From the NCBI RefSeq assembly GCF_018861905.1, contig NZ_JAHLDU010000008.1:124001-188000 (forward strand): a stretch of DNA of 64,000 nucleotides, read 5' to 3'. The stretch comes from Clostridium sp. DSM 17811 (GTDB lineage: Bacteria > Bacillota > Clostridia > Clostridiales > Clostridiaceae). A program made the position numbers and the translations under genes. Below the pieces are notes generated by a model that did not search any database, had not been told where the DNA came from, and saw only the letters and a list, made by a program, of their open reading frames with translations. Below, one piece after another: positions 4,978 to 26,834 of the stretch (position 1 is the first letter of the stretch; each line of letters starts with the position of its first letter).

Positions 4978-6084
4978 TTGAATAAAAAAATAAATTCGGT
5001 TATAATGGCACTTGTTGTAATTATGTGTTTTAGTTTTACTAGCGTATATGCGGATTCTGCGTCAGATAAGGCAAAAATTCAGCAGGTTCAGGTTCAAAGA
5101 AGAAATCTTGAAAATAAAGCAGAGCTGATGAATAATCAACGTAAAATAATTATGGCTAAAATCAATAAGAATGAAAGAAATATAACTATAGCGCAAAAAG
5201 ATATTAAGCAAACAAAAGTAAATCTTGTAAAAGCAGAGGTTGACATCAAAGCAGAACAAATAATTTTTGATAAAAGAATGAGAGCAATATATATGAATGG
5301 GTCAGCAAGTTACATAGACATTATGCTAGGTGCAGATGGTATGGATGATTTTATATCTAGATTGGAAAATATCAAAACCATAGTAACTTTCGATCAAAAG
5401 GCTATTGATGATATGAAAACAAAAGAGGCATCAATTAATTTAAAGAAGGTAGCGCTAGATAAAGGGAATACAAAGTTGCTTTCTTTAAGAGCTTATAATA
5501 AAGAGGATTTGGATATTTTGACAAAACAAAAATCTGACCAAAATGTATTAGTTTTAAAACTAGATGCTCTGGAAAATAAGTATGGCGCACAACTAGTAAT
5601 AGATGAAGCCATTGCAGCGAGACAAGCTTTAGCAGCAAAACAAGCTGGCAAAAGTATTAAGGCTGCTAGTTTTAATACATTACAAGATAGTAATATAGAA
5701 ATCAAAAATGCAGCAATTAAATACACAGCAAGTGATTTGGACTTGCTAGCTAGATTAATAACTGCAGAAGCTGGAGGAGAATCCTATAATGCTCAGGTTG
5801 CTGTTGGTGCAGTAGTTGTAAATAGGGTTAGAAGTGGCAGTTTTCCAAACTCTATAAGTGCTGTTATCAATGAGAAGGCAAATGGAGTATATCAATTTAC
5901 ACCAGTACTTAATGGGAACATTAATAGAACCCCACAGGCGGGAACTATGAAGGCTGCAATTGAAGCACTTAGCGGAACTGATCCGACTAATAATTCAATG
6001 TACTTTTATAGTGGAAGTACTCCTCCGGGTTCACCAAAATCAGCTTCTATAAGAATAGATCATTTAACATTTCTTGGCATGTAG
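4978..6084 (+). CDS. Secreted SleB/CwlJ-family cell-wall hydrolase with coiled coil
   Basis: From the TTG start at 4978 (RBS AGGGGG at 4963-4968) the product is 368 residues and begins with a classic signal peptide ending near VYA-DS. Residues about 30-230 form a long coiled coil rich in Lys, Gln and Ala, as in wall-anchored hydrolases with a PcsB-like N-terminus. The C-terminal 120 residues match the SleB/Hydrolase_2 fold: LLARLITAEAGGE, AQVAVGAVVVNRV, YQFTPV and a final segment ending HLTFLGM. Members are lytic peptidoglycan hydrolases used in spore germination or wall turnover. An upstream ATG at 4897 would hide the signal peptide and lacks an RBS. No promoter box was resolved in 4793-4977. 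Confidence 0.8.
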   Translation: MNKKINSVIMALVVIMCFSFTSVYADSASDKAKIQQVQVQRRNLENKAELMNNQRKIIMAKINKNERNITIAQKDIKQTKVNLVKAEVDIKAEQIIFDKRMRAIYMNGSASYIDIMLGADGMDDFISRLENIKTIVTFDQKAIDDMKTKEASINLKKVALDKGNTKLLSLRAYNKEDLDILTKQKSDQNVLVLKLDALENKYGAQLVIDEAIAARQALAAKQAGKSIKAASFNTLQDSNIEIKNAAIKYTASDLDLLARLITAEAGGESYNAQVAVGAVVVNRVRSGSFPNSISAVINEKANGVYQFTPVLNGNINRTPQAGTMKAAIEALSGTDPTNNSMYFYSGSTPPGSPKSASIRIDHLTFLGM

Positions 6085-6112
6085 TAAAACAACATATAAA
6101 ATACGGATAGTA

Positions 6113-6155
6113 TATACCTAAAGGGAGTTCACTTTGTGAACTCCCTTTAGGTATA
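6113..6155. terminator. Long hairpin after the wall hydrolase
   Basis: A 20-bp perfect inverted repeat centred on TTT (TATACCTAAAGGGAGTTCAC and its complement) lies 30 bp after the hydrolase stop. There is no clean T run, so termination is likely but less certain than for the other stems. Confidence 0.6.
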
Positions 6156-6327
6156 AATAAAAATGATATTAAATTTTATTAGCAGAAATATATTCAATAT
6201 CTTTATTGATTTTAAAAAGAATGAAAGTACATTAAAAATTTTAAATTGGGAAGTATAACTATAATATTAAGATTTTTTAGTATAAATAATTATTTAATAT
6301 CGAAAAGATATAAAGGGAGGAATATTT

Positions 6328-6534
6328 ATGGATTGTTCAAAAATAAAAGAAGTTAATGGAATAGATCATGTTGGAGATGTTCCAAGTGCTAAGAAAGGTA
6401 TAATTGATTTTCTTTCTGGTGAGGACAGATTTAAAGATTCAGTACCAAAAGAGACACTTAATTCATACAAAAAAGGTCGCGAAATAGCAGTAGAAATTGA
6501 AAATATGTTAAATGGTGATCAAAGAGCTTATTAA
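6328..6534 (+). CDS. Small hypothetical protein (68 aa)
   Basis: The gene has an excellent RBS (AAAGGGAGG, 8 bases before ATG) and its own terminator 20 bp downstream, so it is very likely real and monocistronic. The product is hydrophilic, with one cysteine near the start, a segment VGDVPSAKKGIIDFLSGEDRF and a helical C-terminus (KGREIAVEIENMLNG). It has no signal peptide or membrane segment. I do not recognise a family. Confidence 0.65.
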   Translation: MDCSKIKEVNGIDHVGDVPSAKKGIIDFLSGEDRFKDSVPKETLNSYKKGREIAVEIENMLNGDQRAY

Positions 6535-6554
6535 ATTTTAAGATTCCTCAAAAG

Positions 6555-6588
6555 TAGGTACAGAATTTTAATTCTGTACCTATTTTTA
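6555..6588 (+). terminator. Terminator after the 68-aa gene
   Basis: An 11-bp stem (TAGGTACAGAA with TTCTGTACCTA) is followed by ATTTTTA. It is convergent with the cold-shock gene. Confidence 0.8.
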
Positions 6589-6630
6589 TACAGCTAATAT
6601 ATTATACTACAAATCTATAAAATCATTTTA

Positions 6631-6834
6631 TTAAAATTTTTGAACGTTAGATGCTTGAGGTCCTTTTAGTCCATCTACTACATCAAATTGAACTTCCTCA
6701 CCCTCATGTAAATCTTTCCTTGGTCCTTCTTCTTTTATGGATAAATGATGAACAAACACATCTTCACCATCTTGAGCTGATATAAATCCATATCCTTTGC
6801 TAGCATCATACCATTTTACAATACCTGTTATCAT
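6631..6834 (-). CDS. Cold-shock domain protein (CspA family)
   Basis: The 67-residue product is a single cold-shock OB fold. RNP1 reads KGYGFI and RNP2 reads VFVHH, both positioned as in CspA/CspB, and the protein ends with GLKGPQASNVQKF as usual. These proteins bind single-stranded RNA and act as RNA chaperones. AAGGGGG lies 8 bases before the ATG. It is 17 bp downstream of a 54-aa gene on the same strand, so the two are probably one operon. Confidence 0.93.
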   Translation of the reverse strand: MITGIVKWYDASKGYGFISAQDGEDVFVHHLSIKEEGPRKDLHEGEEVQFDVVDGLKGPQASNVQKF

Positions 6835-6851
6835 AAATTTTATCCCCCTTG

Positions 6852-7016
6852 TTATTTATTATGAGATAATTTAGAACGTTTAGTAAATCTGTCATTATTT
6901 GCGTCTATTTTCTCGCCATTTTCAATTCCAATGTCACTTCCATCATGTGGGAACATCTTTCTTAGCTCAGCATTGCTTTTCTTATCAGATCTTAAGTGAC
7001 TTTTATTATTGTCCAT
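6852..7016 (-). CDS. Small hypothetical protein (54 aa) upstream of the cold-shock gene
   Basis: An ATG at 7016 preceded by GGAGGCG opens a 54-codon frame, MDNNKSHLRSDKKSNAELRK and onward, ending TAA at 6852. The product is very hydrophilic and basic at the N-terminus, with a central MFPHDGSDIGIENGEKID stretch. No family is recognised. The strong RBS, the 17-bp gap to the cold-shock gene and the shared strand are the evidence that it is a real gene. The divergent gap 7017-7197 should hold its promoter and that of hypF. Confidence 0.6.
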   Translation of the reverse strand: MDNNKSHLRSDKKSNAELRKMFPHDGSDIGIENGEKIDANNDRFTKRSKLSHNK

Positions 7017-7197
7017 AAATACGCCTCCTTTATTTTGTTATACAATATTAATATTTCCCTAATACTACAAAAATATATGTTCAAAAAAAATTATTAAAAA
7101 TGGTACTAAATCGAAAAAAAATGACATCTATTAAGATGAAAATCATATATTTAAGGGGAAATATAATTATAAGAATACAATAGGAAAGGTGCGTATT

Positions 7198-9483
7198 ATG
7201 GACAAAAGGAGAAGACTTATTGTGGTTGAAGGAATAGTTCAAGGGGTTGGCTTTCGTCCATTTGTATTTAAATTAGCAAAAACTTTTGGATTAAGAGGCT
7301 GGGTGAATAATAATTCTGAAGGTGTTTATATAGATGTTGAGGGGTTTGAGGAAGATATAAACAAGTTTATGCAAGCTCTTAAGAATGATCCTCCACCACT
7401 TTCTAGAATAGAAAAGATAACGATGAAAGCGGATAAAGTATTAAATTACTCTAATTTCCAAATTAAAAAGAGTGAACAGAGTTTAGATAAAATTACTTTA
7501 ATATCACCAGATATAGCTACTTGTAGTGAGTGCGAGGAAGATATACTAAATTTATATAATAGGAGAAGTGGGTACGCTTTTACAAATTGTACAAATTGTG
7601 GCCCAAGGTTTTCTATAATAAAAGAATTGCCTTATGATAGGGACAAAACCACAATGAATGATTTTAAAATGTGTTATCAGTGTAATGACGAATATTTAGA
7701 TCCTACCAATAGAAGATTTCATGCGCAACCTAATGGATGTAAGGCTTGTGGCCCTGAACTTTGGATAGAAGATTCTAAAGGTAATAGGTTAGAAATAGAA
7801 AATCCTATGAATTTTGCTCAAAACATGATTATGAAAGGGAAAATATTTGCAATAAAAGGGCTAGGAGGTTTTCATCTTGCTTGTGATGGATTGAATGAGA
7901 CTTCCGTGAGTAACTTAAGGGAGAGAAAAAAAAGACCATTTAAACCTCTTGCGGTTATGATGAAAGATATGGAAACAGTAAAGAAATATTGTTGGGTTAA
8001 CCAATTAGAAGAGAAGGTACTAACTGGAATTAAAAAACCAATAGTTATTTTAGATCAAAGGGAAGGCTACGATTTACCTATAAAAATTGCACCCAATCAA
8101 AAAACAATAGGGGTAATGCTTCCATATACACCTATTCATATTTTATTATTTTCAGAAAAAATTAAGGTTCTTATTATGACCAGCGCAAATGTTAATAGTT
8201 TGCCTATAGAGTATAAAGACGACTCTGCAAGAAAAGCCCTTTCAGGTATTGTAGATTATTTCCTCATGCATAACCGTAAAATACATGTCCCAGTTGATGA
8301 TTCCGTATTAAAGATTGTAAATAATAATCAAACAATTATAAGGAGGGCTCGTGGTTTTGTGCCAGAACCTTTTAAATGGGAAAGTACGGAAAATATATTA
8401 GCTTGCGGATCCAGTATGAAGAATACTTTCTGTATTAGTAAAGAAGGATTTTTGTTTTTAAGCCAATTCAATGGTGACTTAGAAAATTTAGAAACCTATG
8501 AACATTACAAGGAAAATGTTGAACATTTTAAAAATATATTTTCTTTTACACCGAAATTTATAGTTCATGATATGCATCCCGGATATATGTCAACTAAATA
8601 TGCGCTAGAATATGATTTGCCTAAGGTATCTGTGCAGCATCATCATGCTCATATAGTTAGTAACATGTTTGAAAACAATTTAAAAGAAAAAGTTATTGGA
8701 GTTTGTTTTGATGGAACTGGGTATGGCAGTGACGGCAAAATATGGGGTGGTGAATTCTTGATTTGTGATTACAGTAAGTTTACAAGAGTAGGTCATCTGG
8801 ATTATATTAAAATGCCAGGAGGAGAAAAGGTCATTAAAGAACCTTTTAGAATGGGAGTTTCCTATCTGTATAAGTCTTTAAGTATAAACAATAATAAAAA
8901 AGAAGTTAATGATATTATTTATGATTTATATGGTAGTAAAGGTATTAATATAATTAATCTTTTAAATTCAAACATTAATTGTATAGAGACCTCAAGTATG
9001 GGAAGGTTTTTTGATGCTGTGGCAAATATAATTGGAATTACAGATATAGTTACCTATGAGGGACAGGCATCTATTGAACTTGAAGCTATATCAGAAATGG
9101 ATATTGAAGAATCGTATACTTATAAAATAATAAAACAGGATATGTATATTATAGAGCCCTATGAAATAATTATCGAGGTTTTAAAAGATAAAAGGGAAGG
9201 AATATCTGCTAAAATCATAACATCAAAATTCCAAAATACTGTTGTAAATTTAACTGTGACTATGTGCAAATTCATTAGACAAAACTTTAATATAAATGAG
9301 GTCGTGCTGAGTGGAGGAGTTTTTCAAAATTGTTTTTTGCTTAAGAAGATATGTCGTAATCTAAAAATAAATAAGTTTAAGGTATATATTCATAAGGATT
9401 TACCTTCTAATGATGGAGGAATAGCAATTGGGCAGATAATTATAGCTAATGAAATAATTGAAAATAATCAAATAAGAAGTTAA
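7198..9483 (+). CDS. hypF: HypF carbamoyltransferase for [NiFe] hydrogenase maturation
   Basis: HypF makes the thiocarbamoyl group on HypE from carbamoyl phosphate, the source of the CN ligands of the active site. The 761-residue protein shows the full family layout: acylphosphatase domain (about 8-95, VQGVGFRPFVFKLA), two C4 zinc-finger halves (CSECEEDIL...CTNCGPRFS and CYQCNDEY...CKACGP, about 105-185), a YrdC/Sua5-like domain (about 200-385) and a Kae1-like domain with HHHAH and GVCFDGTGYG plus LSGGVFQNCFLL near the end. ATG at 7198 was chosen because AGGAAAGG ends 8 bases upstream; an in-frame GTG at 7189 lies inside that site. It is the first gene of the hydrogenase operon. Confidence 0.95.
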   Translation: MDKRRRLIVVEGIVQGVGFRPFVFKLAKTFGLRGWVNNNSEGVYIDVEGFEEDINKFMQALKNDPPPLSRIEKITMKADKVLNYSNFQIKKSEQSLDKITLISPDIATCSECEEDILNLYNRRSGYAFTNCTNCGPRFSIIKELPYDRDKTTMNDFKMCYQCNDEYLDPTNRRFHAQPNGCKACGPELWIEDSKGNRLEIENPMNFAQNMIMKGKIFAIKGLGGFHLACDGLNETSVSNLRERKKRPFKPLAVMMKDMETVKKYCWVNQLEEKVLTGIKKPIVILDQREGYDLPIKIAPNQKTIGVMLPYTPIHILLFSEKIKVLIMTSANVNSLPIEYKDDSARKALSGIVDYFLMHNRKIHVPVDDSVLKIVNNNQTIIRRARGFVPEPFKWESTENILACGSSMKNTFCISKEGFLFLSQFNGDLENLETYEHYKENVEHFKNIFSFTPKFIVHDMHPGYMSTKYALEYDLPKVSVQHHHAHIVSNMFENNLKEKVIGVCFDGTGYGSDGKIWGGEFLICDYSKFTRVGHLDYIKMPGGEKVIKEPFRMGVSYLYKSLSINNNKKEVNDIIYDLYGSKGINIINLLNSNINCIETSSMGRFFDAVANIIGITDIVTYEGQASIELEAISEMDIEESYTYKIIKQDMYIIEPYEIIIEVLKDKREGISAKIITSKFQNTVVNLTVTMCKFIRQNFNINEVVLSGGVFQNCFLLKKICRNLKINKFKVYIHKDLPSNDGGIAIGQIIIANEIIENNQIRS

Positions 9484-9566
9484 CAAAAATGAGCATATAA
9501 ACATTTTAGTGAAACATTTCACATATATATTAATTAAGAAGAATAGCAACTAATTAGGAGATAGAT

Positions 9567-9908
9567 ATGCATGAAGTTTCAATAATTGAAAATGTTATTA
9601 AAATAGTAACAGATAAAGCAAAGGAAAATAAACTAACTAAAGTTAAGAAGGTATCACTAAAAATAGGTGAGTTATCGGGCGTTAATGCAGAATGTTTAGA
9701 TTTTGCATTTAACATATGTATTATTGATACAATGCTTGAAGGATCAACTTTAGAGATAGAGAAAGTTGATGCAGTAGCTGAATGTTTTGATTGCAAACAA
9801 AAATTTCACATTGATCATTTTAATAAACTTTGTCCATGCTGTAACAAATTTTGTTCTAGTATTATTCGTGGATATGAGCTTTATGTAAATACAATAGAAG
9901 GAGATTAA
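9567..9908 (+). CDS. hypA: HypA nickel chaperone
   Basis: HypA delivers nickel to the hydrogenase large subunit together with HypB. The 113-residue protein begins with the invariant MHE (N-terminal Ni site, His2) and has the zinc loop as CFDCKQKF and CPCC (about residues 72-93). Length is normal. The gene follows hypF after 83 bp and ends 3 bp before hypB. Confidence 0.94.
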   Translation: MHEVSIIENVIKIVTDKAKENKLTKVKKVSLKIGELSGVNAECLDFAFNICIIDTMLEGSTLEIEKVDAVAECFDCKQKFHIDHFNKLCPCCNKFCSSIIRGYELYVNTIEGD

Positions 9909-9911
9909 AAT

Positions 9912-10601
9912 ATGAGTAAAATAAACATAGTTACGAACATTCTTCAAACAAATAATGAGATAACAGCTAAAAATAAAAAATTACTGGATGATAAGGGGAT
10001 CTATGTAATAAATCTAATGAGTTCGCCTGGGTCAGGTAAGACTTCGCTACTTGAAAGAATAATAACAAACCTTAAAGATAATATTAATATTGCTGTAATA
10101 GAAGGAGATATTTATACCACCAAAGATGCACAGAGGATAGAAGCACAGGGGGTTCCAGTGGTTCAAATCAACACTTGCGGAGCTTGCCATCTTGATGGGT
10201 CAATGATAAAAAGTGCATTAAATTCATTAACCATTGATAAACTTGATCTGCTTGTAATAGAAAATGTAGGTAATTTAGTTTGCCCCGCAGAATTTGAAAT
10301 TGGTGAAGACATAAAAATCTGTGTTTTGAGTACTGCAGAAGGGAATGATAAACCTTTGAAGTATCCACTAATGTTTGAAAAAAGCGGTGTTATTATTTTA
10401 AATAAATTAGATTTAATAGAATTTACTGATTTTGATAAAAAAGAGTTTTATAGAGATATAAAATCCCTAAATGCTAATGCCCATATATTTGAAACATCTT
10501 GTGTTAAAAATCAGGGTATAGATGAAGTATGTTCATGGTTAATGCAGAAAATTAAAAATAAAAAATTGAATAATATTAAAGCATCGCAGATGAGAATTTA
10601 A
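9912..10601 (+). CDS. hypB: HypB GTPase, metal-site copy
   Basis: HypB is the GTP-dependent nickel insertase partner of HypA. The 229-residue protein has the P loop SSPGSGKTSL, the NKLDL guanine-specificity motif and the G-domain metal-site residues in ACHLDG (Cys-His) and NLVCPAE (Cys). It lacks the N-terminal CxxCGC motif and the histidine-rich stretch seen in some HypBs, so it probably binds nickel only at the G-domain site. A paralogue without these metal residues is encoded at 15324-15986. Confidence 0.95.
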   Translation: MSKINIVTNILQTNNEITAKNKKLLDDKGIYVINLMSSPGSGKTSLLERIITNLKDNINIAVIEGDIYTTKDAQRIEAQGVPVVQINTCGACHLDGSMIKSALNSLTIDKLDLLVIENVGNLVCPAEFEIGEDIKICVLSTAEGNDKPLKYPLMFEKSGVIILNKLDLIEFTDFDKKEFYRDIKSLNANAHIFETSCVKNQGIDEVCSWLMQKIKNKKLNNIKASQMRI

Positions 10602-10627
10602 TTAAAGAAGAAAAAGGAGGAAAAAGA

Positions 10628-10837
10628 ATGTGCATTGCAGTCCCAGGAAAAGTATTAAAAATAGAAGGGAATAAAGGAATTGTAGAGATTGGCAATATGA
10701 AACGAGAAGTATTTATGCATCTTGTGCCAGATGTTTGCGTGGATGAATATGTACTTGTACATGCAGGGTGCGCAATTGAAACTATAGATGAAGAAGAAGC
10801 AAAAATAACTTTGAATATTTTTAAGGAGCTTCTTTAA
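10628..10837 (+). CDS. hypC: HypC/HybG chaperone
   Basis: The 69-residue protein starts MCIAVPGKV with the essential Cys2 and matches the HypC family throughout. HypC binds HypD and the large-subunit precursor and carries the Fe(CN)2CO unit. AAGGAGG precedes the ATG. Its TAA is directly followed by the hypD ATG, indicating tight coupling. Confidence 0.95.
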   Translation: MCIAVPGKVLKIEGNKGIVEIGNMKREVFMHLVPDVCVDEYVLVHAGCAIETIDEEEAKITLNIFKELL

Positions 10838-11929
10838 ATGGAGTTTGCTTATGAATTTAGAAATATCGAATATGCTAAGAAACTTGTAGAAAAGCTAAAC
10901 AATATTTCTACTGAAAAGATAAATATTATGGAGGTTTGCGGCACTCATACTATGGCTATATTCAGATATGGTATTAGGGACGTTCTACCACCAAATATAA
11001 ATCTGATATCAGGGCCAGGTTGTCCTGTGTGTGTTACACCTCAGAGCTATATTGATGCTGTACTAACACTTAGTACAAAGAAAGATGTAATTATTGCGAC
11101 TTTTGGAGATATGATGAGAGTTCCTGGAAAAAAGGGATCGCTGAATAAGAAAAAAGAAAAAGGTTTTGATATAAGAATAGTATACTCACCAATGGATTGT
11201 CTTACTATGGCTTCACAAAATCCTTCTAAAAAAGTAGTGTTTTTGTCAGTAGGCTTTGAAACCACAGCGCCGATGACTTCGCTTACTGTTATTGAGGCTA
11301 AAAAAAACAACATAAAAAATTTATTTTTTGCGATTGCCCATAAAATAGTTCCACCGGTCATGAAAATTTTAGCTCAGGATAAAGAATTAAATATAGATGG
11401 TTTTTTATTGCCAGGGCATATTTGTGTAATTAGCGGAACGAAACCATATGAATTTCTAAGTGAGGATTATAATATTCCTGGAGTAGTTACAGGGTTTGAA
11501 CCATTAGATATACTTCAAGGTTTAAATACATTAGTAAATTTAATAAGCAAAAAAAATTATAGGATTATGAATGAATATAAAAGAGTAGTTAAAACTGGTG
11601 GTAACCCCTATGCCTTAGAATATTTGAATAAAACATTTAGGATCGTGGATAGTAGTTGGAGAGGAATTGGAAGAATACATGCAAGTGGCATGGAATTTAA
11701 TAGTAAGTATGAGGATTTTGATGCATTTAAGCATTTTGAAATTGAGTATGAGGATTATGATGGTAGTCCTGGCTGCAAATGTGGAGAAATACTTAAGGGG
11801 AAAATTAAACCAACGGATTGTCCACTTTTCAAAAAAATCTGTAGCCCAGAAAATCCGGTTGGTTCCTGCATGGTTTCATCAGAAGGTGCCTGCGCTACAT
11901 ATTATAGATATCACAAAGAAACTATATAA
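10838..11929 (+). CDS. hypD: HypD iron-sulfur scaffold protein
   Basis: HypD, with HypC, is the scaffold on which the Fe(CN)2CO cofactor is built. The 363-residue protein shows the family motifs MEVCGTHT, GPGCPVCVTP, the glycine-rich GFETTAP and the C-terminal cysteines for the [4Fe-4S] cluster (GSPGCKCGEIL, CPLFKKIC, GSCMVSSEGAC). Length is normal. Confidence 0.95.
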   Translation: MEFAYEFRNIEYAKKLVEKLNNISTEKINIMEVCGTHTMAIFRYGIRDVLPPNINLISGPGCPVCVTPQSYIDAVLTLSTKKDVIIATFGDMMRVPGKKGSLNKKKEKGFDIRIVYSPMDCLTMASQNPSKKVVFLSVGFETTAPMTSLTVIEAKKNNIKNLFFAIAHKIVPPVMKILAQDKELNIDGFLLPGHICVISGTKPYEFLSEDYNIPGVVTGFEPLDILQGLNTLVNLISKKNYRIMNEYKRVVKTGGNPYALEYLNKTFRIVDSSWRGIGRIHASGMEFNSKYEDFDAFKHFEIEYEDYDGSPGCKCGEILKGKIKPTDCPLFKKICSPENPVGSCMVSSEGACATYYRYHKETI

Positions 11930-11965
11930 TAGTTACGTACTTATAAGGAATACAGGAGGGATTAG

Positions 11966-12973
11966 ATGAATGACACTATAACTTTAAGTCATGGAAGTGG
12001 CGGTTTACAATCAAATAAATTGATTAATGAAGTATTTTTAAAATATTTTGGCAATGATATTTTAAATCAAATGAATGATGCAGCACAACTAGAAATAGAT
12101 TTTAAAAAACTTGCGTTTACAACGGACTCTTTTGTAGTAAATCCACTTTTCTTTAATGGAGGTAATATTGGTAAATTAGCAGTTTGTGGTACTGTAAATG
12201 ATTTAGCAGTAAGTGGAGCAAAACCACTTTACATAACAAGTGCTTTTATTATCGAAGAGGGTTTCTCTATTAAAAAACTAGAGCAAATTGTGATGTCTAT
12301 GGCAAATGAAGCGAGAAAATCAGGGGTGAAAATTGTAGCTGGGGATACAAAAGTTGTAGAAAGAGGAAATGTGGATGGTATTTTTATTAACACCTCTGGC
12401 ATTGGTAGAATTTATGAAAATGTTAATATTAACTGCGCCAATGCAAGAGAAGGAGACATTGTTATAGTAAATGGAACCCTGGGAGACCATGGAATGACAA
12501 TAATGTGTGCACGAAACAAACTTGGGCTTGTTGGGGATTTAAGGAGCGATTGCGCATGCCTTAACTCATTAGTAGATACAATGCTTGAAGCATATGGGGG
12601 TATCCACGTTATTCGTGATGCTACAAGAGGTGGAATCGCAGCAGTGCTTAATGAAATTAGTGAATTTAGCAATGTAACCATAGCCCTTGAAGAGAATAAT
12701 TTACCAGTTAAAAAAGAGGTAAAAGGTGTTACTGAGATGCTTGGACTCGATCCATTATATATTGCTAATGAAGGGAAACTTTGTGCTTTCGTTCCGGAAT
12801 CACACGCGCAGAAGGTACTTAGTGCAATGCAAAAGCACCCACTAGGAGTTAATGCAACAATTATAGGAAAAGTAACGGAAGAAATAGGACAAATGGTTTA
12901 TTTAAATACAGTAGTAGGTGGGAAAAGATTAGTTGATATGCCATCTGGAATTCAGCTGCCAAGAATATGTTAA
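11966..12973 (+). CDS. hypE: HypE, cyanide-forming maturation enzyme
   Basis: HypE dehydrates its C-terminal thiocarboxamide to thiocyanate, giving CN to iron on HypC-HypD. The 335-residue protein begins with LSHGSGG and has the PurM-like ATP-binding fold (GDTKVVERG, RDATRGG). It ends in PRIC, with the terminal cysteine that accepts the carbamoyl group. The RBS AGGAGGG is 5-6 bases from ATG. Confidence 0.96.
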   Translation: MNDTITLSHGSGGLQSNKLINEVFLKYFGNDILNQMNDAAQLEIDFKKLAFTTDSFVVNPLFFNGGNIGKLAVCGTVNDLAVSGAKPLYITSAFIIEEGFSIKKLEQIVMSMANEARKSGVKIVAGDTKVVERGNVDGIFINTSGIGRIYENVNINCANAREGDIVIVNGTLGDHGMTIMCARNKLGLVGDLRSDCACLNSLVDTMLEAYGGIHVIRDATRGGIAAVLNEISEFSNVTIALEENNLPVKKEVKGVTEMLGLDPLYIANEGKLCAFVPESHAQKVLSAMQKHPLGVNATIIGKVTEEIGQMVYLNTVVGGKRLVDMPSGIQLPRIC

Positions 12974-12988
12974 ATAGGAGGGAATATT

Positions 12989-13819
12989 TTGCATGAAAGA
13001 AGACTTATAAATAGGGCCATAGATGAAATTCATAATGGAGAGGCTAAAAAGATTAATTTTGTATGGATGGAGGCTAATGGTTGTACGGGGAATATAATTT
13101 CTTTCCTCAATGCAGATCAACCGGATGTTCTTTATTTTCTGGAAGAAATGGTTAATTTGAAATTTAGCCCTAGCCTTATGCAGGCAGAAGGTGAAGTTGC
13201 ATATGAAGAGTTTTTAGAAGTTTTAGATACAAACTTTATATTAGGAGTAGAAGGTGCACTAACTAATATGGATGAGGGTTTCTATAACATATTTGCAACA
13301 TATAAAGGCGTACGGATACCTACAGTTGAAGCTATTAGTCTAGCATCAAAGAAAGCGAAAGCAATAATAGCTATTGGAACTTGTGCTTCATTCGGAGGAA
13401 TATCAGCAGCTAGACCTAATCCAACAGGATGCACAAGTTTAGGCGGGTTCCTTGGACGTGAAGTAATAAATATCCCGGGATGTCCTGCGAATCCACTGTG
13501 GGTTATGGGAACTATAGCTAGTATTATTCTTAATAAAAAGGTTGAGGTAGATGAAAAAGGACGTCCAATATTGTTTTTTAAAGAGACCAATCATACTAAT
13601 TGTTCAAGACGCTCATATTTTGATAATAAAGTATTTGCGCAGAAGCTAGGAGATAAAGAGTGTATGATAAAAGTTGGATGTAAAGGCCCTATTACAAAAG
13701 CTTATTGTCCACTTGGATTATGGAATTCAAGAATCAATTGGCCAGTAGAAGCTAATACACCCTGTATAGGTTGTGCTAGTGAATTTTTTCCGGATGGCAC
13801 AGAGCCATTTGTTAAGTAA
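12989..13819 (+). CDS. [NiFe] hydrogenase small subunit, no Tat signal
   Basis: The small subunit carries the electron-relay FeS clusters. The 276-residue product has all ligands for the distal cluster (His and Cys in NHTNCSRR, Cys in KECM, Cys in VGCKGP) and the medial cluster (AYCP and PCIGC at the canonical spacings of 9 and 19). The proximal site has GCTGN rather than CxxC, so one of four cysteines is asparagine, as I recall for cyanobacterial HupS-like enzymes. There is no twin-arginine signal peptide, so a cytoplasmic location is inferred. Start is TTG at 12989 with AGGAGGG 6 bases upstream; the nearby ATG is out of frame. It precedes the large-subunit gene. Confidence 0.9.
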   Translation: MHERRLINRAIDEIHNGEAKKINFVWMEANGCTGNIISFLNADQPDVLYFLEEMVNLKFSPSLMQAEGEVAYEEFLEVLDTNFILGVEGALTNMDEGFYNIFATYKGVRIPTVEAISLASKKAKAIIAIGTCASFGGISAARPNPTGCTSLGGFLGREVINIPGCPANPLWVMGTIASIILNKKVEVDEKGRPILFFKETNHTNCSRRSYFDNKVFAQKLGDKECMIKVGCKGPITKAYCPLGLWNSRINWPVEANTPCIGCASEFFPDGTEPFVK

Positions 13820-13887
13820 TGAGATGAGCTAAACATAGTTATGTAAATATTGTTATTTAAAATATATTTTAGAGTGAGGTGATTGTG

Positions 13888-15288
13888 GTGACTACCAAGA
13901 TAACTATAGACCCTATAACTAGAATTATGGGGCCTTTAAGTATAGAAGTTGAAATTAAGAAAAATAAAATAGTAGAAGCTAAAAGTGGTGGAATTCAATT
14001 TAGAGGTTTTGAAAAGATGTTAATAGGACGTCAACCTTTAGATGCGGTATATTTTACGCAGAGGATATGTGGTATATGTTCTACATCGCATGGCCTGGTA
14101 GCAAGTCTTGCACTAGAAGATGCATTAAAAGTAAAGCCAAATGAGAACGGAGTAAAAATCAGAGATTTTGCACATGGGGCTGAGTTTCTTCAAAATATTA
14201 TGAGGCAAATTTGTATTTTTGTATTTCCTGATTATGTAGATATAACACTTACTCCAGGAAATGTGGGTTATGATTTTAGAATACCTAAGAATTATACAGA
14301 AAAAATCAATAAAGACTATGTGAAGGCGCTAGAATGTAGCCGTCTTGCCCATGAAATTATAGCTCTAATAGGTGGGAAGGTACCACATACCCACGGCGTA
14401 TTCGTGGGTGGTACAACTGCAAATATGGATGCTTCTAAAATTATGAGATTGAAATCTATACTACATTCTATAAGTGAATTTATGTGCAAAAATATGGTCG
14501 AGGATATAAATATTATAGCTCATTGTTATCCAGAGTACTTCAATATTGGTGGTGGGACAAAAAATCTTCTAACCTATGGATTATTTCATGATTTACCAAA
14601 TAAAGAAATGCAGTACGTTTTGCCTTCAAGTTATATTGATGGTGAGGCAGCTACTTTAAACCCAAAAGCAATAACAGAGAGCTCAGCATTTTCTTGGTAT
14701 AAAGAATCTAAACCTACTGAGGTTCCAGCAAATTATCCATCTGAAACAGATATTAAAAAGCCGGGAGCATATACATTTATTAAAGCACCTAGGTATGAAG
14801 GTAAAGTTGTACAGGTTGGTCCACTTGCTCGTATGATTTTATCAGGGTCATATAAAAATAGTATATCTACTATGGATAGACTTATTGCTCGGGTGCTAGA
14901 GGGGAAAAAGCTTTGTGAAAAAATGCTTATAATACTTGAGTCTATAGAGCCGATACCAGCAGTTCAGAAAAAGTATATTATTCCAGAGAGTGCACAGGGG
15001 GTAGGACTTTGTGATGCTGTTAGGGGAGCTCTCGGACACTTTCTTACAATAGAAAAAGGGGTTATAAAAAATTGCGATATAGTTACACCTACTGCTTGGA
15101 ACCTTTCACCAATAGATGAGATGGGTCAACATGGAGCCCTTGAGAGCGCTCTTATTGGTACTGAAATCGATAATCTTAAAAATCCAGCTGAGATAGGGCG
15201 TATAGTTCGCTCTTTTGATCCTTGCATATCTTGTGCTACACATGTTATTACGGAATATGGTGAACCATATTATATAAATATTATTTGA
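13888..15288 (+). CDS. [NiFe] hydrogenase large subunit (catalytic)
   Basis: This subunit binds the NiFe(CN)2CO site. The 466-residue product has the N-terminal L1 motif RICGIC and the C-terminal L2 motif DPCISCATH, which supply the four nickel/iron cysteines. After that histidine, a tail of about 14 residues (VITEYGEPYYINII) remains; in this family it is removed by a specific endopeptidase after nickel insertion, and such a protease is encoded two genes later. The GTG at 13888 is used, with GAGGTG 6 bases upstream; the in-frame GTGs at 13879 and 13885 are less well placed. The protein is compact for a group 1/2 large subunit. Confidence 0.93.
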   Translation: MTTKITIDPITRIMGPLSIEVEIKKNKIVEAKSGGIQFRGFEKMLIGRQPLDAVYFTQRICGICSTSHGLVASLALEDALKVKPNENGVKIRDFAHGAEFLQNIMRQICIFVFPDYVDITLTPGNVGYDFRIPKNYTEKINKDYVKALECSRLAHEIIALIGGKVPHTHGVFVGGTTANMDASKIMRLKSILHSISEFMCKNMVEDINIIAHCYPEYFNIGGGTKNLLTYGLFHDLPNKEMQYVLPSSYIDGEAATLNPKAITESSAFSWYKESKPTEVPANYPSETDIKKPGAYTFIKAPRYEGKVVQVGPLARMILSGSYKNSISTMDRLIARVLEGKKLCEKMLIILESIEPIPAVQKKYIIPESAQGVGLCDAVRGALGHFLTIEKGVIKNCDIVTPTAWNLSPIDEMGQHGALESALIGTEIDNLKNPAEIGRIVRSFDPCISCATHVITEYGEPYYINII

Positions 15289-15323
15289 TCCAGTTGAAAT
15301 AAAATGGTTAGGGGAATAGTAAA

Positions 15324-15986
15324 ATGAGCGAAATAAAGATTAGTATTAATATGTTAAATACTAATGAAGAGATTCACGCGGAAAACAAAAATTTATTTGA
15401 TGAAGAGGGCATATTTGTTATAAATCTAATGGGATCTCCAGGAGCTGGTAAAACATCTATACTTGAGAAATTAATTCCAAAGATTAAACAAAACTTGAAT
15501 ATGGCGGTTATTGAAGGAGACTTATATACTACTAAAGATGCACAGAGAATTGAAGCTAATGGAGTTCCAGTAGTACAAGTCAATACTGTTAGAACTTCGT
15601 ATTTAGAAGGAGCTAAGGTAAGGGAAGCATCATTAAATTTTGATTTAAGAGATATAGATCTTATTATTATAGAGAATGTAGGAAGTTTAGTATCTCCCGC
15701 TGAATTTGAAATTGGTGAGGATATTAAAATTTGTCTTCTTAGTGTTACAGAAGGTAATGACAAGCCTTTAAAATACCCATTGATGTTTGAAAAAAGCAGC
15801 GCGATAATTTTAAATAAAATTGATTTACTTACATTTACTGATTTTAAGGTAGAAGAGTTTTATGAGGATATTAAATTGTTGAATAATAAGGCAAAGATTT
15901 TTCAAACTTCTTGCACTAGAAATGATGGAATAGATGAATTAAGTGAATGGATTTTGAAACAAGTAAAAGAAAAAGTAAGGGGCTGA
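15324..15986 (+). CDS. Second HypB paralogue lacking the metal-site residues
   Basis: The 220-residue protein is clearly homologous to the HypB at 9912 over its full length: P loop GSPGAGKTSIL, IEGDLYTTKDAQRIEA, NKIDLL and the FEIGEDIKIC segment are all kept. However the Cys-His pair (ACHLDG in the other copy) reads TSYLEG, and the third ligand (LVCPAE) reads LVSPAE. The GTPase core therefore looks intact while the nickel/zinc site at the dimer interface is gone. It lies between the large subunit and the maturation protease. It may regulate or heterodimerise with HypB, or serve only this hydrogenase; that is inference. Confidence 0.9.
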   Translation: MSEIKISINMLNTNEEIHAENKNLFDEEGIFVINLMGSPGAGKTSILEKLIPKIKQNLNMAVIEGDLYTTKDAQRIEANGVPVVQVNTVRTSYLEGAKVREASLNFDLRDIDLIIIENVGSLVSPAEFEIGEDIKICLLSVTEGNDKPLKYPLMFEKSSAIILNKIDLLTFTDFKVEEFYEDIKLLNNKAKIFQTSCTRNDGIDELSEWILKQVKEKVRG

Positions 15987-16429
15987 GCTCTATTATAGGT
16001 AAAAAGGTTATAGCTATAGGTAATAGTTTAATGATGGATGATGGAGTAGCACTTCTGATTTTAGATAAAATAAGGAAAAGATTAGAGGATAAAGGTATTG
16101 AAAGTATTATGGGAGAAACGGATGTAGAATTTTGTTTCTCTTTATTAAATGAGATAGATGTATTTTATATTATGGACTCAACGTATTATGGTAATGTCCC
16201 AGGTACATTGACTTTTAAAAATTTAGATGACATAAAGAAAACTAAGGATTACAGTATGTCTATTCATTCTCTAGGGTTAATGGATCTCATAAACATGTAC
16301 AATATGGATATAAAAGGTTATTTTATAGGGATAGAAATTTCTAAAATAGATATAAATCTTGGCTTAAGCAATGTTTTACAGGGAAAAGTGAAAGATATAT
16401 CCCAAAAGGTAATGAGTTTTATTATATAA
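15947..16429 (+). CDS. [NiFe] hydrogenase maturation protease (HyaD/HycI family)
   Basis: This endopeptidase family trims the large-subunit C-terminal tail after nickel insertion. Motifs are VIAIGNSLMMDDGVAL (with the nickel-sensing Asp/Glu position), the ETDVEF and MDSTYYG segments with the second acidic ligand, and SIHSLGL with the conserved His. The ATG at 15947 overlaps hypB2 by 40 bp and has no good RBS; family members normally begin only a few residues before the VIAIGN strand. An AAGGGG at 15977-15982 is 9 bases before an ATT codon at 15992, which may be the true start. Confidence 0.85.
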   Translation: MDFETSKRKSKGLSSIIGKKVIAIGNSLMMDDGVALLILDKIRKRLEDKGIESIMGETDVEFCFSLLNEIDVFYIMDSTYYGNVPGTLTFKNLDDIKKTKDYSMSIHSLGLMDLINMYNMDIKGYFIGIEISKIDINLGLSNVLQGKVKDISQKVMSFII

Positions 16430-16470
16430 TTATAGCAAGTTATGTATGATAATAAGTTAATTATTCTGTG

Positions 16471-16521
16471 CTCCACTCCATTAATAAGTATTAGTACTTA
16501 TTAATGGAGTGGAGTTTTTAT
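16471..16521 (+). terminator. Strong terminator ending the hydrogenase operon
   Basis: A near-perfect 20-bp stem (CTCCACTCCATTAATAAGTA and its complement) is followed by TTTTTATTTTAT. It closes the ten-gene hyp/hydrogenase operon. Confidence 0.92.
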
Positions 16522-16540
16522 TTTATATTAATATTGAAAT

Positions 16541-16573
16541 CCTTATAGAATCCTTATAAATTCTTAGTATTAT
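16541..16573 (+). promoter_or_regulatory. Promoter with 11-bp direct repeats before the LanFEG-like operon
   Basis: CCTTATA at 16541 and 16552, then CTTAG at 16563, repeat with an 11-bp period and run straight into a TATTAT -10 box at 16568-16573. No consensus -35 is present. This is the geometry of class II activation by an OmpR-family regulator. The regulator encoded at 18902 is the natural candidate. Confidence 0.5.
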
Positions 16574-16609
16574 AAAACTATAGTAAATGAAAGGAAGATG
16601 ATTAAGATT

Positions 16610-17317
16610 ATGAATAATTATATTTTACAAACAAAAAATCTTTGCAAATCTTTTAAAAAACAGTGTGCGGTAAACAAGATTTCACTATCTATTGAGAAAA
16701 ATTCTGTCTATGGATTGTTAGGACCAAATGGGGCCGGAAAATCAACTCTATTAAAAATGATTACGGGAATGCTTCATCCAACATCAGGAGAAATTATTTT
16801 TGAGGATCATCCTTGGAGTAGAGATGATCTTTATAATATAGGAGTTTTGATTGAATCTCCACCTCTTTATGAAAATCTTACGGCGGTTGAAAACCTTAAA
16901 GTACGAACTATTCTTTTAGGCCTTCCAGATTCTCGTATTAAAGAAGTACTGGAAATTGTGGATTTGACAAACACAAAGAAAAAGCAAGCAGGACAGTTTT
17001 CTATGGGAATGAAGCAAAGGCTTGGAATTGCAATTGCACTTCTGAACAAACCCAAATTGCTAATTTTGGATGAGCCTACAAATGGACTAGATCCTCTTGG
17101 AATACAAGACTTAAGGGAGCTAATACGTTCTTTTCCAGAGCAGGGAATAACGGTCATTCTATCAAGTCATATATTGTCCGAGGTTGAACTTATTGCAGAC
17201 CATATCGGTATCATAAGCAATGGGGTACTCGGGTATAACGGCAAGATTAATCCTGGAGAAGATTTGGAAGTACTTTTCACAGAGGTTGTGAAAAATAACA
17301 GGAAGGAGGATTTATAA
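16610..17317 (+). CDS. Lantibiotic/peptide-resistance ABC transporter ATPase (LanF/CprA-like)
   Basis: The ATPase of a LanFEG-type exporter that expels cationic antimicrobial peptides from the membrane. The 235-residue protein has Walker A (GPNGAGKSTLL), a Q loop replaced by GVLIESPP as is typical of the BcrA/LanF branch, the signature FSMGMKQRLG, Walker B (LLILDEPTNGLDP) and the H loop (SSHIL). The ATG at 16610 is preferred, since the ATG at 16598 abuts the AAGGAAG site. It overlaps the next gene by 1 bp. No lantibiotic structural gene is seen nearby, so this looks like a resistance rather than a self-immunity module. Confidence 0.85.
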   Translation: MNNYILQTKNLCKSFKKQCAVNKISLSIEKNSVYGLLGPNGAGKSTLLKMITGMLHPTSGEIIFEDHPWSRDDLYNIGVLIESPPLYENLTAVENLKVRTILLGLPDSRIKEVLEIVDLTNTKKKQAGQFSMGMKQRLGIAIALLNKPKLLILDEPTNGLDPLGIQDLRELIRSFPEQGITVILSSHILSEVELIADHIGIISNGVLGYNGKINPGEDLEVLFTEVVKNNRKEDL

Positions 17318-21824: not shown

Positions 21825-22853
21825 ATGAATATTAAATATATAAAGAAAATGCCTACTGAGAAGGAAATTATGGAAGAAATGCCTCTACCCAATAATATTA
21901 AAGAAATTAAAAAAAACAGAGATGCTGAAATAAGGAAAGTTTTTGAGAATGAATCTGATAAGTTTCTCCTTATAGTTGGACCATGTTCAGCTGATAACGA
22001 AGATTCGGTGTGCGAATATATAGGAAAGCTTGCAGAAGTTCAGGAAAAGGTAAAAGATTCTATCATTATTATACCTAGAATTTACACAAACAAACCTCGA
22101 ACTACTGGTGAAGGATATAAAGGTATGGCCTCTCAACCAGATCCAAGTAAGGAACCTGATATGGATGCAGGATTAAGAGCTATTAGAAAACTCCATTTAA
22201 AAGCATTAAGTGAATATCACATGCCTGCTGCAGACGAAATGTTATATCCAGAAAATTATACATATCTATCAGATTTGTTAGGGTACATTGCTGTTGGAGC
22301 CCGCTCAGTAGAAAATCAGCAACATAGATTTACAGTAAGTGGTGTTGATATGCCTGTAGGTATGAAGAACCCAACTGGTGGAGATCTGACTGTAATGCTA
22401 AATTCAATTAAAGCAGCACAGGATGGTCATACTTTTATATATAGTGGATGGCAGGTTGAAACATCAGGAAACCCACTTGCACATGCTGTTTTAAGAGGGG
22501 CTGTGGATTCTTATGGTAAAAATATTCCAAACTATCATTATGAAGATTTGATAAATATTGCTAAAGAATATGAAAAACAGAAATTTGCAAATCCTTCTAT
22601 TATTGTAGATACTAATCATGCAAATTCAATGAAGCTTTATAAAGAACAACCAAGAATAGCTAGAGAAGTATTAATGAGTAGGAAAGATGACTCTCTACTT
22701 AAAAAAATGATAAAAGGATTTATGATTGAAAGTTATATTGTAGAAGGTAAACAAGATGTGGGGCGAGGCACTTATGGTAAATCTATAACAGATGCATGTT
22801 TAGGATGGGAAGAAACTGAAAAATTAATTTATAATATTGCTGAAAATTTATAG
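21825..22853 (+). CDS. 3-deoxy-7-phosphoheptulonate synthase (DAHP synthase), copy 1
   Basis: Catalyses the first step of the shikimate pathway, from phosphoenolpyruvate and erythrose 4-phosphate. The 342-residue protein matches the type I (AroF/AroG/AroH) family: LLIVGPCSADNEDSV, PRIYTNKPRTTGEGYKG, GARSVENQQHR, VGMKNPTGG, VDTNHANSMK, MIESYIVEGKQ and the C-terminal YGKSITDACLGWEET. A GAGGAAAAAG RBS precedes ATG. It ends at a terminator. A paralogue with about 15 differences lies at 25806, beyond a divergent operon. No T-box or trp-type leader was seen upstream. Confidence 0.93.
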   Translation: MNIKYIKKMPTEKEIMEEMPLPNNIKEIKKNRDAEIRKVFENESDKFLLIVGPCSADNEDSVCEYIGKLAEVQEKVKDSIIIIPRIYTNKPRTTGEGYKGMASQPDPSKEPDMDAGLRAIRKLHLKALSEYHMPAADEMLYPENYTYLSDLLGYIAVGARSVENQQHRFTVSGVDMPVGMKNPTGGDLTVMLNSIKAAQDGHTFIYSGWQVETSGNPLAHAVLRGAVDSYGKNIPNYHYEDLINIAKEYEKQKFANPSIIVDTNHANSMKLYKEQPRIAREVLMSRKDDSLLKKMIKGFMIESYIVEGKQDVGRGTYGKSITDACLGWEETEKLIYNIAENL

Positions 22854-25805: not shown

Positions 25806-26834
25806 ATGAATATTAAATATATAAAAAAGATGACTACTTCAAAGGAAATTATGGAAGAAATGCCTCTGTCAAATAAAATTAAAGAAATTAAAAAAAACAG
25901 AGATGCTGAAATAAGGAAAGTTTTTGAGAATAAATCTGATAAGTTTCTACTTATAGTTGGACCATGCTCGGCTGATAACGAAGACTCGGTGTGTGAATAC
26001 ATAGGGAAGCTTGCAAAAGTTCAGGAAAAAGTAAAAGACTCTATAATAATTATACCTAGGATTTATACAAATAAACCTAGAACTACTGGTGAAGGATATA
26101 AAGGCATGGCCTCTCAACCAGACCCAAATAAAGCACCTGATATGGATGCAGGATTAAGAGCTATTAGAAAACTTCATTTAAAAGCATTAAGTGAATATCA
26201 TATGCCTGCTGCAGATGAAATGTTATATCCAGAAAACTATACATATCTTTCAGATTTATTAAGTTATCATGCAGTTGGAGCTCGCTCTGTAGAAAATCAG
26301 CAACATAGATTTACCGTAAGTGGTATTGATATGCCTGTAGGTATGAAGAATCCAACTGGTGGAGATCTAACTGTAATGCTAAATTCAATTAAAGCAGCAC
26401 AGGGTGCTCATACTTTTATATATAGCGGATGGCAGGTTGAAACATCAGGAAACCCACTTGCACATGCTGTTTTAAGAGGAGCCGTGGATTCTTATGGTAA
26501 AAATATTCCAAACTATCATTATGAAGATTTAATAAATATTGCTAAAGAATATGAAAAACAGAAGTTTTTAAATCCTTCTATTATTGTGGATACTAATCAT
26601 GCAAATTCAATGAAGCTTTACAAAGAGCAACCAAGAATAGCTAGAGAAGTGTTAATGAGTAGGAAAGATGACTCTCTACTTAAAAAAATGATAAAAGGAT
26701 TTATGATTGAAAGTTATATTGTAGAAGGTAAACAAGATGTAGGGTCTGGCACTTACGGTAAATCCATAACAGATGCATGTTTAGGATGGGAAGAAACTGA
26801 AAAATTAATTTATAATATTGCTGAAAATTTATAG
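25806..26834 (+). CDS. DAHP synthase, copy 2
   Basis: The 342-residue protein is a paralogue of the product at 21825, with about 15 substitutions by eye (for example P10T, E12S, G152S, I154H, D199G, G200A, R315S), or about 96% identity. All catalytic motifs are the same. The similarity extends into the RBS region (AATAAATAAG...AAAGTG) but not further upstream, so the promoters differ. The two copies may differ in feedback control, as E. coli AroF/G/H do; the changes at 152-154 and 199-200 are the ones to look at. It ends at its own terminator. Confidence 0.93.
   Translation: MNIKYIKKMTTSKEIMEEMPLSNKIKEIKKNRDAEIRKVFENKSDKFLLIVGPCSADNEDSVCEYIGKLAKVQEKVKDSIIIIPRIYTNKPRTTGEGYKGMASQPDPNKAPDMDAGLRAIRKLHLKALSEYHMPAADEMLYPENYTYLSDLLSYHAVGARSVENQQHRFTVSGIDMPVGMKNPTGGDLTVMLNSIKAAQGAHTFIYSGWQVETSGNPLAHAVLRGAVDSYGKNIPNYHYEDLINIAKEYEKQKFLNPSIIVDTNHANSMKLYKEQPRIAREVLMSRKDDSLLKKMIKGFMIESYIVEGKQDVGSGTYGKSITDACLGWEETEKLIYNIAENL

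Follow-up and report, generated by a model that had tools for sequence, protein, structure and literature searches.

In the G3E GTPase HypB (TIGR00073; solved structures 4lps, 2hf8 and 2wsm), the residues of the CHxnC motif bind Ni/Zn at the dimer interface and are required for maturation, according to passages of PMC3262836 and PMC7055735, the former of which calls the motif invariant. In the M. jannaschii dimer, as described in part of PMC7055735, three Cys coordinate one of the zinc ions: the two of one protomer and only the first of its partner. The other zinc is coordinated by the Cys, His and Cys of a single protomer. Passages of PMC3262836 also report that A. fulgidus HypB needs the Asp72-Lys148 salt bridge to dimerize in a GTP-dependent way, and two hydrophobic N-terminal residues are needed for HypA docking in the text seen from PMC3287977. 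Since mutating either the metal site or the GTP switch damages hydrogenase maturation, metal binding and switching are hard to separate in HypB.

Several described systems come close to the locus considered here. The Thermococcus kodakarensis HypB, an ATPase of the Mrp/MinD family and the sole HypB discussed in that context, has revealed no nickel site of its own; the high-affinity site arises on HypA within the HypA-HypB complex (passages of PMC7055735). Extra hypB genes per genome occur in Synechocystis and as hypB2/hypB3 in Cupriavidus, and in the excerpts of PMC4517062 and PMC3702609 they are comparable by gene count. The second HypA/HypB of Synechocystis is described in part of PMC4517062 as dispensable for the hydrogenase and probably serving other metalloproteins; hence a surplus HypB does not have to act in maturation. 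A nine-gene cluster 'hypABCDEFGHB', whose last gene is a second B, was reported for Clostridium estertheticum and C. tagluense in passages of PMC8996182. Its presence was linked to meat spoilage without pack swelling, and the authors propose hydrogen uptake. Those passages say nothing on a metal site or on the role of the last gene, and HypB is absent from the main text of that paper.

We analyzed a 64,000-nucleotide stretch of the genome of Clostridium sp. DSM 17811 (the window), which carries two hypB genes beside one hydrogenase. HypB1 has an intact Cys-His...Cys, and HypB2 shares with described HypBs the whole-length homology, the GTP motifs, the salt-bridge pair and the HypA dock, and differs from them in having no CHxnC. 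Like the T. kodakarensis protein it would act as a HypB in which no nickel site is seen, but here an intact HypB is encoded as well. The operon of the window is very probably 'hypABCDEFGHB' of the same species group, so that the existence of the second B gene is very probably already in print (PMC8996182, in part) and the hydrogenase of the window is probably a working one. In the passages of open-licence PMC literature, no HypB without CHxnC beside an intact HypB was found.

Gene cluster and metal site of HypB2

The genes from hypF to the protease lie on one strand and are tightly spaced (Table 1), and from this spacing we infer a single operon. The small ORF between hypB1 and hypD is presumably hypC-like, judging by its start and location. 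HydL is related to NiFeSe-type large subunits, with 4kl8 and 1cc1 as the closest solved chains. Only one hypA match was found in the genome, namely that of the cluster, which gives one HypA and two HypBs. In the protease ORF, the sole ATG falls within hypB2 (window 15947-16030), and the segment matching its relatives starts near the hypB2 stop, past AAGGGG at 15977-15982. Its start may therefore be non-standard or coupled, perhaps after the hypB2 stop. The hairpin scan returned five sites in the region against 3.9 expected from shuffles; these included two weak plus-strand hairpins (six and seven pairs) within the gene run. An Rfam scan of positions 6000-17000 gave zero matches.

Table 1. Features of the hydrogenase cluster, in window coordinates.
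Feature	Position	Strand	Evidence
hypF	7189..9483	+	TIGR00143, 802 bits
hypA	9567..9908	+	TIGR00100, 93.6 bits
hypB1 (HypB with intact Cys-His...Cys)	9912..10601	+	TIGR00073, 255.7 bits; triad CHC
Small ORF	10628..10837	+	starts MCIAVPG
hypD	10838..11929	+	TIGR00075, 490 bits
hypE	11966..12973	+	TIGR02124, 480 bits
Hydrogenase small subunit (hydS)	12989..13819	+	TIGR00391, 198.7 bits (cut-off 179.5)
Hydrogenase large subunit (hydL)	13879..15288	+	NF033181, 444.8 bits (under cut-off 600)
hypB2 (HypB-family GTPase without G-domain metal ligands)	15324..15986	+	TIGR00073; triad SYS
Ser92-Tyr93 codons replacing ligands Cys-His	15597..15602	+	alignment to HypB1, DNA
Ser124 codon replacing second Cys ligand	15693..15695	+	alignment to HypB1, DNA
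Hydrogenase maturation protease ORF, start uncertain	15947..16429	+	TIGR00072, 83.9 bits
Terminator-like hairpin 3' of protease	16470..16515	+	20 pairs, then T-rich

The hypB2 ORF encodes 220 amino acids, starts with ATG and has AGGGG nine bases upstream. Its product matches the NCBIfam HypB profile with 233.6 bits (cut-off 121.2) over residues 2-215, i.e., the whole length, while the UreG profile TIGR00101 gave 61 bits, under its cut-off of 204.2. Mrp/MinD was absent from the NCBIfam scan, and the 11 families listed were GTPases of the HypB/UreG/Era/Obg/MeaB kind. HypB2 is a HypB by descent, and a nickel chaperone role is only putative. AlphaFold gave a mean pLDDT of 38 for nine HypB2 sequences, and this model was set aside.

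The first-pass annotation, made by eye, had read ACHLDG as changed to TSYLEG and LVCPAE to LVSPAE with the GTPase core retained, and pairwise alignment to the HypB at 9912 bears this out. INTCGACHLDG of HypB1 stands against VNTVRTSYLEG of HypB2, and NLVCPAE against SLVSPAE, so that Cys-His...Cys is replaced by Ser92-Tyr93...Ser124; the P loop, GDLYTTKDAQRIEA, ENVG and NKID are retained. Alignment to 4lps, 2hf8 and 2wsm places the three substituted residues at ligand positions, and the reading of the lost residues as the Ni/Zn ligands of the G domain agrees with the passages of PMC3262836 and PMC7055735.

Outside the metal site, functional positions are kept throughout the 11 orthologues found in the genus. 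All of them have the P-loop Gly40, Gly42, Lys43 and Thr44, together with Asp66, Asp72, Arg75, ENxG, Lys150 and NKxDL, and thus hold all the GTP-binding motifs sought (P loop, Asp66, ENxG, NKxD), and all lack CHxnC. Glu48 is kept in all nine rows of alignment A1. By alignment, Asp72 and Lys150 correspond to the GTP-dimer pair of A. fulgidus, and both are present in 11/11. Position 4 (Ile, Leu or Met) and position 6 (Ile) are likewise hydrophobic in every orthologue. Furthermore, some residues are fixed in all 11 HypB2s and in neither HypB1 nor the HypB of another genus, g9, e.g., Tyr93 and Ser103. Read as predicted functions, the conserved positions show a GTP switch, a dimer lock and a HypA dock in a protein whose metal site has been given up.

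Distribution and origin of HypB2

Among the 17 genus genomes searched, 11 contain HypB2, and the same 11 contain hydL of the window type (at least 84% identity), with HypB2 directly after hydL in each. The triad is SYS in four (G000, G001, G006, G007), CYS in five (G005, G009, G012, G014, G016), CYT in G002 and CYI in G008; two distant matches of the genus search (G012:C3 and G008:C1, weaker than E 1e-50) were left out of these readings. Thus, His is replaced by Tyr in 11/11, the second Cys by Ser, Thr or Ile in 11/11, and the first Cys by Ser in 4/11. The earlier claim that all three ligands are lost holds for these four, in the subclade of the window, whereas the other seven keep the first Cys. 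Because all 11 orthologues are affected and each is an open full-length frame, the loss is beyond chance. HypB1 and hypA share the cluster with hypB2 in 10/11 genomes, the remaining contig (G014) being only 3586 bases long. The placement of hypB2 between the large subunit and the protease, also noted at first pass, recurs in 8/11; the protease lies on other contigs in G012 and G016, and the contig ends in G009.

In a scan with one genome per species, 17 loci comprised eight HypB2 orthologues and nine intact HypBs, and the hosts of L003-L010 are Clostridium frigoris, C. algoriphilum, C. psychrophilum, C. sp. CF012, C. tagluense, C. bowmanii, C. lacusfryxellense and one MAG. Judging by these named relatives and PMC8996182, the window probably stems from the C. 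estertheticum complex. A metal-less second HypB beside one hydrogenase is a trait of cold-loving clostridia.

Several irregular loci were noted in the genus. G012 carries a second, truncated hydL-hypB2 stretch adjoining a hypF-like piece (L102:3212-5137, contig C51), with hypB2 77% identical over 132 amino acids, which seems to be a degenerate duplicate of the cluster. G004 has a protease of 70% identity (G004:C1:645123-645554) and neither such a hydL nor HypB2; it looks like the survivor of a cluster whose other genes have disappeared. In G008, G012 and G016 (GCLVSPA and alike), a new Cys stands at HypB2 position 121, three residues N-terminal of where the second ligand used to be, and the first Cys is kept in all three; the new Cys is possibly a moved ligand.

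Outside the genus, a search of 206 genomes of the family (E ≤ 1e-50) gave 84 matches, all of them CHC. In the wider sample, 72/72 loci were also CHC: two from the class search and 70 phylum matches, the latter a non-random sample of 30 top-scoring loci and 40 chosen because they were second copies or scored low, drawn from a phylum search in which at least 168 of 398 genomes had a HypB match among the matches listed. A metal-less HypB as a common variant was thus not found in these samples of family, class and phylum. Searching for paralogues without Cys-His/Cys, as had been suggested, yielded only the HypB2s of this genus, and the impression that an intact and a metal-less HypB in one operon are unusual was sustained, the pairing having been found in this lineage alone among the HypBs examined.

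The best family matches outside the genus came from g9 (G093, G094, G096). These genomes have the same hydrogenase, with hydL 70% identical and the order hydL-hypA-hypB-protease. The g9 HypB (L097, L098, L099) is 68-72% identical to HypB2 and likewise follows hydL. Unlike HypB2, it keeps Cys-His...Cys, has its own hypA directly upstream, and is the sole HypB match in each of the three genomes, which thus have no HypB1. In a 49-row tree, HypB2 forms a clade (100/98) joined to the g9 HypBs (100/99), and HypB1 branches in another clade, among HypBs that belong to a second type of hydrogenase locus in the genus. It follows that HypB2 is the hydrogenase locus's own HypB and not a copy of HypB1; the view of it as a copy derived from the HypB at 9912 must be given up, its sister being an intact HypB of another genus. 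A recent drifting duplicate of HypB1 was rejected by the tree and by dN/dS, and the frameshifts in relatives that had been envisaged for such a duplicate did not appear: all 11 orthologues are open and without stops, by which a pseudogene was also rejected.

Since in g9 this hydrogenase is accompanied by a sister HypB with all three ligands, the metal site was lost stepwise in the genus lineage. The triads show that His and the second Cys were changed before the sampled genus genomes diverged and that the first Cys was changed later, in the subclade G001/G007/G000/G006 (support 99/93). The most parsimonious course would comprise the arrival of a hypA-hypB1 pair in the cluster, the disappearance of the original hypA and the loss of the metal ligands from the original HypB; their sequence in time is our inference.

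Selection on HypB2

Pairwise dN/dS (Nei-Gojobori, own script) was calculated for the 45 pairs of the 10 genomes having both HypB1 and HypB2; it should be noted that genome pairs share branches and are hence non-independent. The median was 0.162 for HypB2 and 0.108 for HypB1, and dN was higher in HypB2 in 40/45 pairs (median ratio 1.56). In the SYS subclade, without any ligand, the six HypB2 pairs gave 0.111-0.194, and the 21 pairs of the other seven genomes gave 0.122-0.272. For comparison, the medians of hydL and hydS were 0.109 and 0.102 (36 pairs of nine genomes each; G012 and G005 were left out for hydL, hydS, hypA and the protease). One hypA pair (G000-G006) reached 1.48 at a dS of 0.02, with too few changes to weigh. 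Between G000 and G001, hypB2 has 33 nonsynonymous differences per 525 sites and 48 synonymous per 129 (Fisher 2e-17).

Constraint is unevenly spread along the protein. In the metal loops (positions 88-99 and 119-128, 22 positions, limits chosen by us), dN/dS was 0.306 for HypB2 vs. 0.055 for HypB1, and in the rest 0.146 vs. 0.112. HypB2 varies at 34 sites that HypB1-type proteins conserve; 10 of them lie within the 22 loop positions (Fisher 0.0004), and 158 of 39,800 placements in a two-window test reached at least 10 of these sites. HypB2 is under purifying selection, with relaxed metal loops, and this selection on the orthologues gives substance to the retained GTPase core pointed out at first pass.

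These values bear on two other explanations. One is that HypB2 is a relic: HypB1 made the old HypB of the locus redundant, the metal site went first, and slow decay follows while the operon position preserves the gene. The raised dN of HypB2 and the truncated second copy in G012 (L102) fit this, but all 11 HypB2s are open, constraint persists after the loss of all ligands (dN/dS 0.11-0.19), the G000-G001 differences are far denser at synonymous sites, and residues such as Tyr93 and Ser103 are fixed specifically in HypB2. The relic reading is thereby weakened, and we regard it as unlikely. The other is that HypB2 still binds metal through other ligands, or binds a different metal. The first Cys, kept in 7/11, and the new Cys at position 121, seen in 3/11, would suit this idea, but no replacement ligand is conserved, the HypB2 of the window has neither Cys, and the metal loops are the very part that is relaxed, so it appears highly improbable.

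Possible role of HypB2

Based on the above results, we suggest, with about an even chance of being right, that HypB2 is a GTP switch dedicated to this hydrogenase, acting beside HypB1 and HypA, which would carry the nickel. Its ancestor would have been a complete HypB serving the hydrogenase beside its own HypA, an arrangement that g9 has kept. In the ancestor of the genus, the hypA-hypB1 pair of another hydrogenase locus would have joined the cluster and taken over nickel handling; HypB2 then shed its metal ligands and, by its sequence, retained the positions for GTP binding, the dimer lock and HypA docking. GTP may dimerize HypB2 with HypB1 or with itself, and the dimer may contact HypA as well as the large subunit in its apo form, nickel transport being the task of HypB1 and HypA. 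HypB2 would be left with a step specific to the hydrogenase, for instance docking or a release gated by GTP; both this step and the partner (HypB1, HypA or the large subunit) are proposed from sequence comparison. The roles suggested at first pass, a partner of HypB or a quality-control factor, are likewise hypothetical. The shared occurrence and constant adjacency of hydL and HypB2 speak for a dedicated switch, as do the intact HypB1 and HypA in the cluster, the purifying selection, the kept GTP, dimer and HypA-docking positions, and the g9 locus, which is without HypB1 and keeps an intact HypB in three genomes. The faster evolution of HypB2 relative to HypB1 speaks against it.

HypB2 alone might instead activate HypA without any metal of its own, a mode of action considered for the T. 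kodakarensis ATPase-type protein. The docking positions 4 and 6 kept in 11/11 and the precedent in the passages of PMC7055735 favor such an activator, but that precedent comes from a different NTPase family (Mrp/MinD), and a HypB1 with intact ligands, present in all 10 long loci, would already do the job; we consider this quite unlikely.

A narrower form of the dedicated switch, which we put forward only tentatively, is that HypB1 and HypB2 form an obligate heterodimer in which HypB2 is the partner without metal. HypB2 lost first exactly what the second protomer of the M. jannaschii dimer does not give to the shared zinc, namely His and the second Cys, and the first Cys, which the second protomer would give, remains in 7/11. 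A site shared in this way is weakened as an explanation by the loss of the first Cys in the subclade of the window. Arg occurs at HypB2 position 90 in 3/4 of the SYS subclade and in 0/7 of the others, and in the subclade of the window it perhaps stands in for the metal at the HypB1-HypB2 interface. If the asymmetric pair exists, one of its faces would bind metal and the other would serve docking, and one large subunit would be loaded per GTP cycle.

In HypB2, the metal site alone has been lost in the course of evolution, with an intact copy in the same cluster and the earlier state displayed by g9. This makes testable what the GTP-driven dimerization of HypB does besides holding nickel.

Elsewhere in the window, two nearly identical 342-aa ORFs (21825-22853 and 25806-26834) lie about 3 kb apart. 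We take them to be DAHP synthases of aromatic amino acid synthesis, and the ORFs between them are presumably chemoreceptor-like and MarR-like.
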